A stretch of DNA of 64,000 bases from Caldisphaera lagunensis DSM 15908 (GTDB taxonomy: Archaea > Thermoproteota > Thermoprotei_A > Sulfolobales > Acidilobaceae), in the NCBI RefSeq assembly GCF_000317795.1, contig NC_019791.1, positions 558,001 through 622,000 on the forward strand, read 5' to 3'. Made by a program: the position numbers and the translations under genes. This document shows, piece after piece, positions 22,288 to 37,223 of this stretch. How positions within the stretch are numbered: position 1 is the stretch's first letter; each line of letters starts with the position of its first letter. The notes under the pieces are model-generated. The model saw only the letters and a program-made list of their open reading frames with translations, was not told where the DNA came from and ran no database searches.

Positions 22288-23343
22288 TTAAAGCAATATT
22301 GATGCTTCTTTATAGATTGGGTCTAAAAATTCATAATTTTCATCAATAATACTTAATTTCTTCAAATTATTCAAAATATTATCGAGAACACTAGTAGAAA
22401 TTGTACTACCTTCCTCTTTTTGGATACAATTAACTATCTTACTCCAGCTATTCGTTCCTCTAGCTATGCATCTCATAACTGTTCTATAACGTCTTGCTAC
22501 AACAGGGGAGACGTTATTTTTCATCTCGATCAAGTTATTAATCTCATTTAAAGCAACATTTATTGCTATATTCTTTACTCTTTTCAAATCTCTATTGTTG
22601 GAAAATTGATTTCCGGCCAAAGCTAGCCACCCTGGAATACCATCAAACATTTCAATAATACCATGTATTACGTTCTCATCAACATTTAATCTTAACTCTT
22701 CGAAACCTTTTCTTAAAAACAGCTCGCTTTTGTCTTTATCAAACCTCTCTAACGTTATTTCATGATAGTATCTCCCATAGAGTGGTGATTCAGAATTCTC
22801 TATACCTAAAAATTCATGAAGTAGTCCTACTTCAGAGCCAGTTAAAATAAAGGTTAAGTTTCTATCATAATCATAAGCATGAGCGATGCTATCCTTTATT
22901 TCCTTTGATAAAGGCCCTCTTAATTTTTGAGCCTCATCTATTCCTATTATTATTCTTTTCTCGTTTAAATGATCAAAAAGATCTGATAGAGTTACATATT
23001 CTTTTCCTTTCCATTTTAATTCTATACTATTACCAAGAATACTAATCCCTCTTATTTTACTTAATATTTCAAGAAATGTTGAAAGTTTAGATGATATTGC
23101 GTTGGAGAATAGTGAGTACAAATTCCCCTTACTATAATTAGGGGGCAAATTTCTACAATCTATTATAAAATGTGGTATTTTTAACTCATTAAGTACAACT
23201 TTTAGTATCGATGTTTTACCTATTCTTCTAACCCCAGTTATTAAAATTAAAGGTCTATTGATATTATTCATTATTTCTTCAATCTCTTTTTCTCTATCAA
23301 ACAAATCTCCTTTATTCTCTTTAGGTCTTTCATCAAATAACAA
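22288..23343 (-). CDS. Archaeal-type STAND-like ATPase (PF01637-like)
   Basis: 351 residues. The N-terminal FDREKEIEEIMNNINRPLILITGVRRIGKTSILK is the Walker A region with the RRIGKT variant, and IIIGIDEAQKLRG is Walker B. The rest has FILTGSEVGLLHEF and a C-terminal winged-helix part (about 280-350). These ATPases are widespread in archaea and of unknown cellular role, some linked to mobile elements. The start is TTG at 23343, overlapped by a tandem palindrome that also carries the ribosome-binding site. No partner such as a nuclease is adjacent. Confidence 0.85.
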   Translation of the reverse strand: MLFDERPKENKGDLFDREKEIEEIMNNINRPLILITGVRRIGKTSILKVVLNELKIPHFIIDCRNLPPNYSKGNLYSLFSNAISSKLSTFLEILSKIRGISILGNSIELKWKGKEYVTLSDLFDHLNEKRIIIGIDEAQKLRGPLSKEIKDSIAHAYDYDRNLTFILTGSEVGLLHEFLGIENSESPLYGRYYHEITLERFDKDKSELFLRKGFEELRLNVDENVIHGIIEMFDGIPGWLALAGNQFSNNRDLKRVKNIAINVALNEINNLIEMKNNVSPVVARRYRTVMRCIARGTNSWSKIVNCIQKEEGSTISTSVLDNILNNLKKLSIIDENYEFLDPIYKEASILL

Positions 23344-23379
23344 CTTCTCCCCCAGAAGTTAACTTCTCCCCCAGAAGTT
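23342..23379. promoter_or_regulatory. Tandem 19-bp palindrome over the ATPase start
   Basis: Two perfect adjacent copies of AACTTCTCCCCCAGAAGTT (23342-23360 and 23361-23379), each with 7-bp arms and a 5-bp centre. On the minus strand the centre reads GGGGG next to AGAAG, so the copy next to the TTG start also supplies the Shine-Dalgarno. It may be an operator for autoregulation, or an RNA hairpin that hides the ribosome-binding site. Confidence 0.75.
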
Positions 23380-35053: not shown

Positions 35054-35968
35054 TTATTGAGTTTTTTGTTTATCTGAATTTTTGTATGACAAAAGCTCCC
35101 TTAATATGCTATCTTTTAATTGCAACCAGTTTTGATCTTTAGGTACAGATATTTTAACTAAATATATTAAATAATTTTTATCGCTTTGTTCCGTTAAATA
35201 AAAGCTTGCCTTATCATCAAATTTACTTAATACTTTTTTTGCATGTAATTCAAATGCTTCCATATCGCTTATTGGTATTTCTACTCTAATAGAGCCAGTA
35301 AAGTTATCTTCCCATATCGTTTGATATTTGATAATACCCCCACCCAAAATATGGCTATTTGTTATCTTTAATTCATAGCCTTGATCTGTTATAATTGAAG
35401 ATGCAAATAAGCCAACTTCTACTACCTTTCCATCATATCCAGGTATTATATAATCTGGCGAGAAATATTTGTATCCTGGATTTGAAGCCCATTGATATGG
35501 TAAACGCCAATTTATTACCCTTACTCTTTCTCCAGGCTTAATAAATCCTGTTGTTAATATTAGTATTCCAGAAAATAAGTTATCTAAAGTAGGTTGCAGA
35601 GCATAACCTAAAACCAAACCTGTTACAGTACCTCCAAATAATGCTACCGTAGTGCTAATTTTTGTAAAAGCTATTACTGCTATGATAACTATAATATAAC
35701 CTACTATTTTTACAAGATTACCAACTGATAAAGATCTTTCCCTATATTTAGGAAATAAGCTTCTTATAATACCATTACCTATACTTCTAACTATTAACAA
35801 ACCCGCTGCTAAATAAAGAACATCTCTTACAACATACATGTACTCTTGTAATCTATGGATAAAAATTGCTAAAAAGTTAACAAACAGGTATATTGTTACA
35901 ACTATAGCGACTATTGAAATAATTTCTGCCAAGGTTCTGTTAAATGTTGAAATGGCCCTTCTTGAAAT
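35054..35968 (-). CDS. mscS: MscS-type mechanosensitive channel, probable AUU start
   Basis: About 304 residues from an ATT at 35968, or 292 from the TTG at 35932. The membrane helices are at about 20-100. The pore helix is LFGGTVTGLVLGYALQPTLDNLFSGILIL, followed by FIKPGERVRV, typical of MscS. It opens when the membrane is stretched. The stretch 35933-35968 codes SRRAISTFNRT, has no ATG/GTG/TTG start, and is preceded by GGGGAGG (35980-35974) and a TTTATAA box (36012-36005) about 25 bp before the expected transcript start. I take ATT as the start. The ATT alternative is an inference; the TTG lies directly inside the reading frame with no ribosome-binding site. Confidence 0.85.
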   Translation of the reverse strand: MSRRAISTFNRTLAEIISIVAIVVTIYLFVNFLAIFIHRLQEYMYVVRDVLYLAAGLLIVRSIGNGIIRSLFPKYRERSLSVGNLVKIVGYIIVIIAVIAFTKISTTVALFGGTVTGLVLGYALQPTLDNLFSGILILTTGFIKPGERVRVINWRLPYQWASNPGYKYFSPDYIIPGYDGKVVEVGLFASSIITDQGYELKITNSHILGGGIIKYQTIWEDNFTGSIRVEIPISDMEAFELHAKKVLSKFDDKASFYLTEQSDKNYLIYLVKISVPKDQNWLQLKDSILRELLSYKNSDKQKTQ

Positions 35969-35973
35969 TTTGT

Positions 35974-36012
35974 CCTCCCCAATAACAATATTATTTGTGT
36001 TGAATTATAAAG
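35974..36012 (-). promoter_or_regulatory. Promoter and Shine-Dalgarno of mscS
   Basis: The minus strand has a TATA-like CTTTATAATTC (36012-36003) and GGGGAGG (35980-35974). The spacing would put the transcript start about 14 nt before ATT 35968. There is no usable start codon between the SD and ATT. Confidence 0.6.
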
Positions 36013-36053
36013 CTATGTAGCATCTCACCCATTATTTTTAACTAGATGGGGGT

Positions 36054-36099
36054 TAAGGGGGCGAAAGTCCCCTTCCATGAGGGATGGATAGCCCCCTTA
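36054..36099. repeat. Nested inverted repeat with alternative pairings
   Basis: Outer stem TAAGGGGGC (36054-36062) pairs with GCCCCCTTA (36091-36099). Inside, TCCAT (36074-36078) pairs with ATGGA (36084-36088). AAGGGG (36055-36060) can instead pair with CCCCTT (36069-36074), so two mutually exclusive folds are possible. It lies between the mscS promoter and the tnpB relic, and could be a left end of that element or an RNA structure. Confidence 0.6.
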
Positions 36100-36149
36100 T
36101 AGAAGGATTTATTATAATTCATCAATTCTGGGAAAAATATTAGGCATTG

Positions 36150-36360
36150 GCTGAAAGCTCTAGGTCATACCCTAGGGACTGGGGATTAAGCCTGTGGAGA
36201 GCAAACCCTCCGTAACTCCTCCTTCCACACGGGATATAACGGAACGGTTCTGTTTGATGGAATACTGTGGGTGTAGGGAGATCGAGGTTACTCTAAGAAG
36301 CAGGAAATTCTCACCGCGAGGTGGGGATGCCCCATCAGAAAGGGCGGGATAGTCCACATA
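36150..36360 (+). pseudogene. Decayed tnpB 3' end / IS200-IS605 right-end relic
   Basis: From 36182 to the TAG at 36352 the plus strand reads a 57-codon open frame starting GIKPVESKPSVTPP and ending SPRGGDAPSERAG, which resembles the C-terminal tail of archaeal TnpB (KPVE...). The preceding bases read a plausible HWLKALGHT in another frame, indicating a frameshift, and no upstream tnpB body remains. The end has the hairpins CTCACC-GCGA-GGTGGG and GGGG-ATG-CCCC expected at a right end (omega-RNA region). The reverse-strand ORF 36172-36357 is its shadow. Confidence 0.5.
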
Positions 36361-37223
36361 ACTATACTAGAAGTAGAATAAACATTTAGGATCATAAGGT
36401 TAACCTTTTTTCAACCAAAAGAGGTTAAATTTCGGTTAACTCTACCATTCTTATGGAAAAAGTAGAGATAACTTCCTGTTAACTCTACTTATTTTTAAAT
36501 TTTTTATAATTTAAAAGTTGTTTTATAATATAATTTACTCATATCGTTCCTCTTATATAAAATTTTGGTAATACCTTGATTAGAGGTTTAACATAAAAAA
36601 AGAGTAGAAGATATAGCTAAAACAAATAGGTGCTAATATGAATTTAAGGAAGCGGTATTACCTAAGATCAAGTAATACCGCCAAGGAAGCGATCCATAAA
36701 CTTTTATTTTTTAGATATAGCATATACAATTAAATAATAGTTTATTAAATAAATAAAAAAATATAGTTTACTAGTAAATACACTAGTAAATTTATCAATT
36801 TATTGTTTAGCTATCAAATTAAAATTCATTAATTGCTACTGAAGCATAATTCATGAATTTTTATAAAACAATATTTAATCTTAATTTTTATTGATTATAT
36901 TAAAATATGTTAGAAACAATTCATGAATTTTTATTTGTTAATTAATTTGAAAATATTAATCAAATAATAGTGAATGAGACTTTTGATCTTTTTTACATTT
37001 CTTTAATATTCCTCATTTTTTGTAAACAATGAAAATTTTTTCTACAATAAAGGATGAGATTTCTATCAAAGACAAAAACATTACAACAAATGAAAGTCTA
37101 GCTAGAAAAAATCAGTCTTTTTTATATGTTTTATTAAGATTTTGAATGTTTCTTAAAGCTTGGAAATGTTTATATAATGAAGGAGACATATTTCTTCTTA
37201 TTTCTAAAAACTTTTTATTAAAG
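36361..37223. other. AT-rich gene-free region with repeats
   Basis: Contents: GTTAACTCTAC at 36435-36445 and 36478-36488 with a near-inverse GTAGAGATAAC at 36462-36472 between them; a perfect 10-bp stem GCGGTATTAC/GTAATACCGC (36652-36661, 36672-36681) flanked by AAGGAAGCG direct repeats (36646-36654, 36683-36691); and a 17-bp direct repeat AATTCATGAATTTTTAT (about 36849-36865 and 36920-36936). No coding, rRNA, tRNA or ORB-type origin motif is seen. Confidence 0.6.

Follow-up and report, generated by a model that had tools for sequence, protein, structure and literature searches.

A putative AUU start codon led by a Shine-Dalgarno sequence in an mscS-family gene of Caldisphaera lagunensis, and candidate near-cognate starts in related archaea

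Start site of the mscS-family gene

The mscS-family channel gene of Caldisphaera lagunensis very probably begins at an AUU codon, at position 35968 of the window (the whole 64,000-nucleotide stretch that was analyzed, G000:C1:558001-622000 of the one-contig genome G000, 1,546,846 bases). We consider it highly probable that mscS is translated from this AUU by means of a Shine-Dalgarno (SD) sequence, that it belongs to a small class of genes with near-cognate start codons, and that its translation is likely weak and steady. As judged from sequence comparisons, SD-led near-cognate starts are a sparse class, with examples from two genera of a single archaeal order. The codons of this class are AUU, AUC, AUA, ACG and CUG, and the features observed for it are the position of the codon, an SD at a usable distance and exchanges with standard start codons at homologous positions.

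The AUU start had been proposed in a sequence-only reading of the window, on the grounds that the frame stays open for 12 codons beyond the first TTG, that no ATG, GTG or TTG occurs in frame between that TTG and an upstream stop, that GGGGAGG lies five bases ahead of the ATT, and that a TATA box is found upstream. All of these elements were located as described, and their positions are presented in Table 1; the upstream stop and the ATT are separated by 12 codons, none of which is ATG, GTG or TTG.

Table 1. Features of the mscS locus in the C. lagunensis window
Feature	Position	Strand	Basis
mscS-family channel gene, likely translated form, 304 codons from ATT plus stop	35054..35968	-	PF00924; comparison of species
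ATT (AUU) start codon	35966..35968	-	Same column: ATT in three species, GTG in two
Shine-Dalgarno sequence GGGGAGG	35974..35980	-	5 nt (ACAAA) before ATT; 16S tail; -10.1 kcal/mol
TATA-like box TTTATAAT	36004..36011	-	First T 43 nt ahead of the A of ATT
In-frame stop TAA, upstream bound of the mscS frame	36005..36007	-	Sequence
TTG, codon 13 counting ATT as 1, first standard start codon	35930..35932	-	No SD (+0.4 kcal/mol)

The 16S rRNA gene of G000 fits the archaeal model, and GGAGG can be regarded as a true SD core because the 3' end of this 16S rRNA reads GGATCACCTCCTTT. Pairing with the 16S rRNA was found at a usable spacing, with the SD at offset 11 (hand-placed). This is closer to the codon than the mode of 13-15 obtained when the SD spacing was calibrated on ATG genes, but within the observed range, and offset 11 was also found in 60 ATG genes of that calibration. 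Given the usual distance from a TATA box to the transcription start, the TATA-like box predicts an mscS leader of about 13 nt that would start near 35981 and have the SD right at the 5' terminus. A similar box, TTTATAAA, was found 41 nt before the ATT (hand count) in the related genome G004. A scan of the mscS locus for sigma-70 promoters and terminators, and an Rfam search, gave nothing useful.

The MscS beta domain is present in the predicted protein, where the Pfam MscS family PF00924 matches residues 128-208 (E 1.4e-6, 28.7 bits vs. a cut-off of 20.2). The E. coli-type MscS subfamily model NF007662 gave 21.6 bits vs. a cut-off of 321, and because this score is far under the cut-off the product is regarded as a distant member of the superfamily. 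The residues SRRAISTFNRT, encoded between the ATT and the TTG and taken in the sequence-only reading as typical of MscS, are partly conserved in the genus, but they are no general MscS signature. In G000 and G004, basic residues come ahead of the first peak in hydrophobicity (window from residue 19), and in two distant relatives (L007 and L008) basic residues directly follow an apparent TTG start.

Conservation of the start column within the genus

The within-genus comparison was performed with five species, G000, G001, G002, G003 and G004, and an mscS gene was found in all five genomes searched. The Acidilobaceae archaeon UBA158, a match at 85% identity in a genome-contig search, was counted as one with G004 because their start regions are identical. 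The same column holds ATT in G004 (85% identity) and in G001 (58%), preceded by the SD-like sequences GGGGGAG and GGGGGA, respectively, with duplex energies of -8.4 and -9.1 kcal/mol as compared with -10.1 kcal/mol in G000. In a protein alignment without N-terminal gaps, the ATT of these three species stands opposite a GTG in G003 and G002, so that the alignment of N-termini proposed as a check supports the AUU start. The lack of a usable AUG, GUG or UUG, together with the conserved start column, is clearest in G001.

A protein that starts at the TTG of codon 13, with the open frame upstream of it as leader RNA, would have the advantage of a standard start codon, and this codon is conserved in G004. 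We nevertheless regard such a start as very unlikely, since the TTG has no SD in either G000 or G004 (+0.4 kcal/mol in both), conserved residues (S.F.R..EI) continue across codon 13 in three species, and G001 has ATT in place of the TTG. The first standard codon in frame in G001 is an ATG at codon 30, within the first membrane helix and midway along the hydrophobic stretch, which in G000 and G004 begins near residue 19; translation from this ATG would leave the protein without half of the helix.

Alternatively, a sequencing error, as the sequence-only reading had allowed, or a frameshift could mask the true start, or this start could lie in an upstream first exon joined by splicing. Frameshifts do exist in the G000 assembly (the GNAT gene at G000:155557-156160 is one case), and splicing of protein genes has been described in crenarchaea (PMC2738675). 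Both versions are scarcely credible, given that the same ATT and SD-like sequence recur in separate assemblies and that two other species have GTG at the same column. A start at the conserved ATT is preferred over a start at the TTG or a hidden one.

In the near-identical genes of G003 and G002 there are three differences in the 15 nt before the GTG. The 900 nt that begin at the GTG differ at 16 sites, of which 14 are third codon positions. Because of this distribution, the GTG is a likelier mscS start in these two species than the ATG found five codons upstream, although a start at the latter is possible.

Near-cognate codons at other loci of the genus

The survey of G000 covered 862,000 bases and 819 open reading frames (ORFs) of at least 80 codons. 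Its comparison with approximately 652 kb of G004 yielded 215 ortholog pairs, a set that was not fully blind, as the G004 loci of mscS and EamA had already been found and were deliberately included. Fifty-two of the 215 pairs were flagged, and five were retained by eye: mscS, aroC, EamA, an aldehyde dehydrogenase and an AIR-synthase-like gene. Codons were inspected for eight of the flagged pairs. Most of the others were judged from their N-termini alone, which suggested a standard start located deeper in the frame, ORFs that are antisense or broken, or masked N.

At four G000 loci other than mscS, the start column holds a near-cognate codon and other species lend support to it. The chorismate synthase gene aroC reads ATC in G000 and G004, in precise alignment with ATG in G001, G002 and G003, with an SD of -11.7 kcal/mol; the second residue of its product falls opposite the second residue of both of the closest chorismate synthases with solved structures. 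The start column of the aldehyde dehydrogenase gene reads ACG in G000, TTG in G004 and ATG in G001 (SD -7.8, -7.8 and -8.5 kcal/mol, respectively); the matches in G002 and G003 are paralogs with about 34% identity and were left out. The AIR-synthase-like gene has CTG in G000, G004 and G001 and ATG in G003, with no match in G002; in G001 an upstream TTG and an upstream GTG are also present, both without an SD. The start of the EamA transporter gene is ATT in G000, ATA in G004 and ATT in G001, in all cases after GGTGA, and the distance from there to the first standard codon is 35 codons in G000 and G004, but no more than seven in G001; the transporter of G003 has a differing N-terminus.

A further pair reads ACG in G000 as well as in G004, with an SD of -9.5 kcal/mol in each. 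The gene of a GH15-like secreted protein (G000:713935; L142-L146) has ATA in G000 (SD -10.5 kcal/mol) opposite GTG in G003 and G002 (SD -6.5 and -7.7 kcal/mol), and an ATG a few codons upstream instead in G004 and G001. The start of this gene appears to have shifted between species of the genus, and its near-cognate status is uncertain. A UppS-like candidate with ACG in two species is likewise uncertain, its frame in G004 being open further upstream. In a radical-SAM-like ORF (G000:763022-764269), 11 conserved codons precede a TTG without an SD. The NUDIX, SFM1-like and nucleotidyltransferase candidates are uncertain too, and no relatives of them were found in the sampled G004 sequence.

The GNAT acetyltransferase gene mentioned above (L062 15500-16160, G000:155500-156160) was rejected as a case of an ATT start. 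It is split in G000 by a frameshift soon after an ATG that lies in another frame, and its relative in G004 is a single frame.

Scan counts, SD spacing and a second genus

A raw scan for near-cognate starts matched nine of 653 ORFs in G000, four of 461 in G004, seven of 299 in G042, ten of 322 in G053 and five of 116 in E. coli; G042 and G053 (400 kb each, same scan) were intended as negative controls. These totals were rejected as evidence, because the five E. coli matches are false: according to the annotation, gcvP and rpnC have standard starts, the matches in gcd and panD are antisense, and one falls in the yedS pseudogene. The E. coli infC gene was absent from the matches, though its ATT scores -9.3 kcal/mol. 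Nor did ATT show any general SD enrichment, 2.2% of 882 ATT codons reaching -8 kcal/mol or better vs. 16% of 593 ATG codons. The raw counts alone therefore do not prove the class; AUU starts are rare in G000, and the case rests on the homologous start columns.

A spacing test was performed on genes without an SD-led standard start, in which the share of codons at offsets 13-15 from the SD that are near-cognate (ATT, ATC, ATA, ACG and CTG) was compared with the share at offsets 8-11 and 18-22. In G053 the result was 9/17 vs. 5/50 (p 0.0006). It was not significant in G000 (4/19 vs. 4/54, p 0.12), G004 (6/17 vs. 9/45, p 0.18) or G042 (1/9 vs. 5/26, p 0.86). Pooling with G004 left out gave 14/45 vs. 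14/130 (p 0.002), and a wider core of 12-16 gave 20/83 vs. 14/130 (p 0.009).

G053, meant as a negative control and belonging to a second genus of the order, came out positive. Its TtuA-like gene has ATT at the start, as has that of its congener G072, with an SD of -12.2 kcal/mol in each; the column, read at 11 of 13 other sampled loci, holds ATG or TTG in seven, a non-start codon in three, and ATT beside TTG in one. An ABC transporter gene has ATA in both G053 and G072, as the first of two adjacent ATA codons, and in 12 of 13 other sampled loci the column is occupied by ATG, GTG or TTG in six and lacks them in six. The assignments at the distant loci are less sure, because the columns were projected gap-free from the start of each match.

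Comparison with known starts and proposed mechanism

In E. coli, the infC product IF3 regulates the expression of its own gene. The genes infC and pcnB of E. coli resemble mscS in their AUU starts, and the infC SD scores -9.3 kcal/mol by the same measure; they differ in that their starts involve bacterial factors and Met-tRNA, and mscS encodes no translation factor. The sequence-only reading had connected AUU starts in bacteria with infC autoregulation, a link that is inapplicable to mscS because the genome is archaeal. In addition, the mscS product is an MscS-like channel and not a start-codon proofreading factor, and pcnB of E. coli has an annotated ATT start as well.

AUU could still be a regulated start, retained so that translation responds to the levels of initiation factors in the manner of infC. 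It is indeed retained in three species, and S. solfataricus aIF1 favours discrimination against non-canonical starts according to PMC6237735 and PMC8211752. We consider a regulated start unlikely, as the codon varies at the other loci (ATC, ATA, ACG and CTG) and is exchanged with standard starts between species, a pattern that suggests drift more than a fixed switch. Furthermore, the aIF1 (SUI1) genes themselves (L075-L079) have an in-frame ATG near the N-terminus in all five species, which is a candidate start, and from their sequences they do not look like near-cognate starts.

In the preferred reading, GGGGAGG would pair with the 3' end of the 16S rRNA and place the small ribosomal subunit over the AUU. 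The initiator Met-tRNA (anticodon CAU) would pair with A and U and presumably tolerate the mismatch at the third base, and the protein would begin with methionine because this tRNA would accept AUU. The output of channel protein is likely to be weak and steady, and aIF1 may have some role in the choice of AUU. The mscS gene would then belong to a small SD-led class of genes in this archaeal order, its start having drifted by one base from AUG.

A single precedent was found in print: the gene for L12ae of Staphylothermus marinus (Smar_1096), which, according to the part of the genome paper (PMC2678158) that deals with it, appears to begin with ATC. As with mscS, the organism is a crenarchaeon and an AUH start was deduced from an alignment; that account concerns one gene, without an analysis of SD or spacing, whereas several genes and species are compared here. 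A review of archaeal initiation names AUG, GUG and UUG as start codons, with no AUU in its main text (PMC7531240). The archaeal UUG and GUG starts that it describes resemble the near-cognate starts in being non-AUG and in occurring with or without a leader. UUG and GUG match AUG at positions 2 and 3, whereas AUU, AUC, AUA and ACG do not. No multi-gene class of near-cognate starts was found in the archaeal literature searched, a search that had most subscription journals outside its scope.

It is rather likely that AUU, AUC, AUA, ACG and CUG serve this order as a regular, minor group of start codons, used by perhaps approximately 1% of genes, and that they take the place of AUG, GUG or UUG where a strong SD is present. 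If so, start selection on SD-led mRNAs in archaea would accept mismatches at each of the three codon positions, and some of the genes in these genomes that look like pseudogenes or have truncated models would be normal ones. Gene callers restricted to ATG, GTG and TTG shorten or drop genes with near-cognate starts, including aroC, the gene of an enzyme of aromatic amino-acid synthesis, and would cut the first helix of the channel in one species. These genes would also be convenient natural mRNAs on which to examine how aIF1, aIF2 and the SD divide the choice of start codon in archaea.

Repeats in the window

A GC-rich intergenic repeat of approximately 330 nt (window 36037-36367, minus strand) ends just upstream of mscS. 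The sampled G000 sequence contains four more copies, with 79-90% identity, near 174131, 401931, 525063 and 760696. The repeat was not found in the G004 sample, Rfam gave no match, and inspection by eye of the ORFs of at least 150 codons beside the copies revealed nothing transposase-like. Its beginning, GAACTACC followed by a hairpin, is reminiscent of a TnpB element's non-coding end.

A 19-nt direct repeat, AACTTCTGGGGGAGAAGTT, occurs twice in tandem at window 23342-23379 (minus strand), in the start region of a 356-codon ORF. Because of this tandem repetition, the SD-like sequence GGGGGAG is doubled ahead of the TTG of that ORF.
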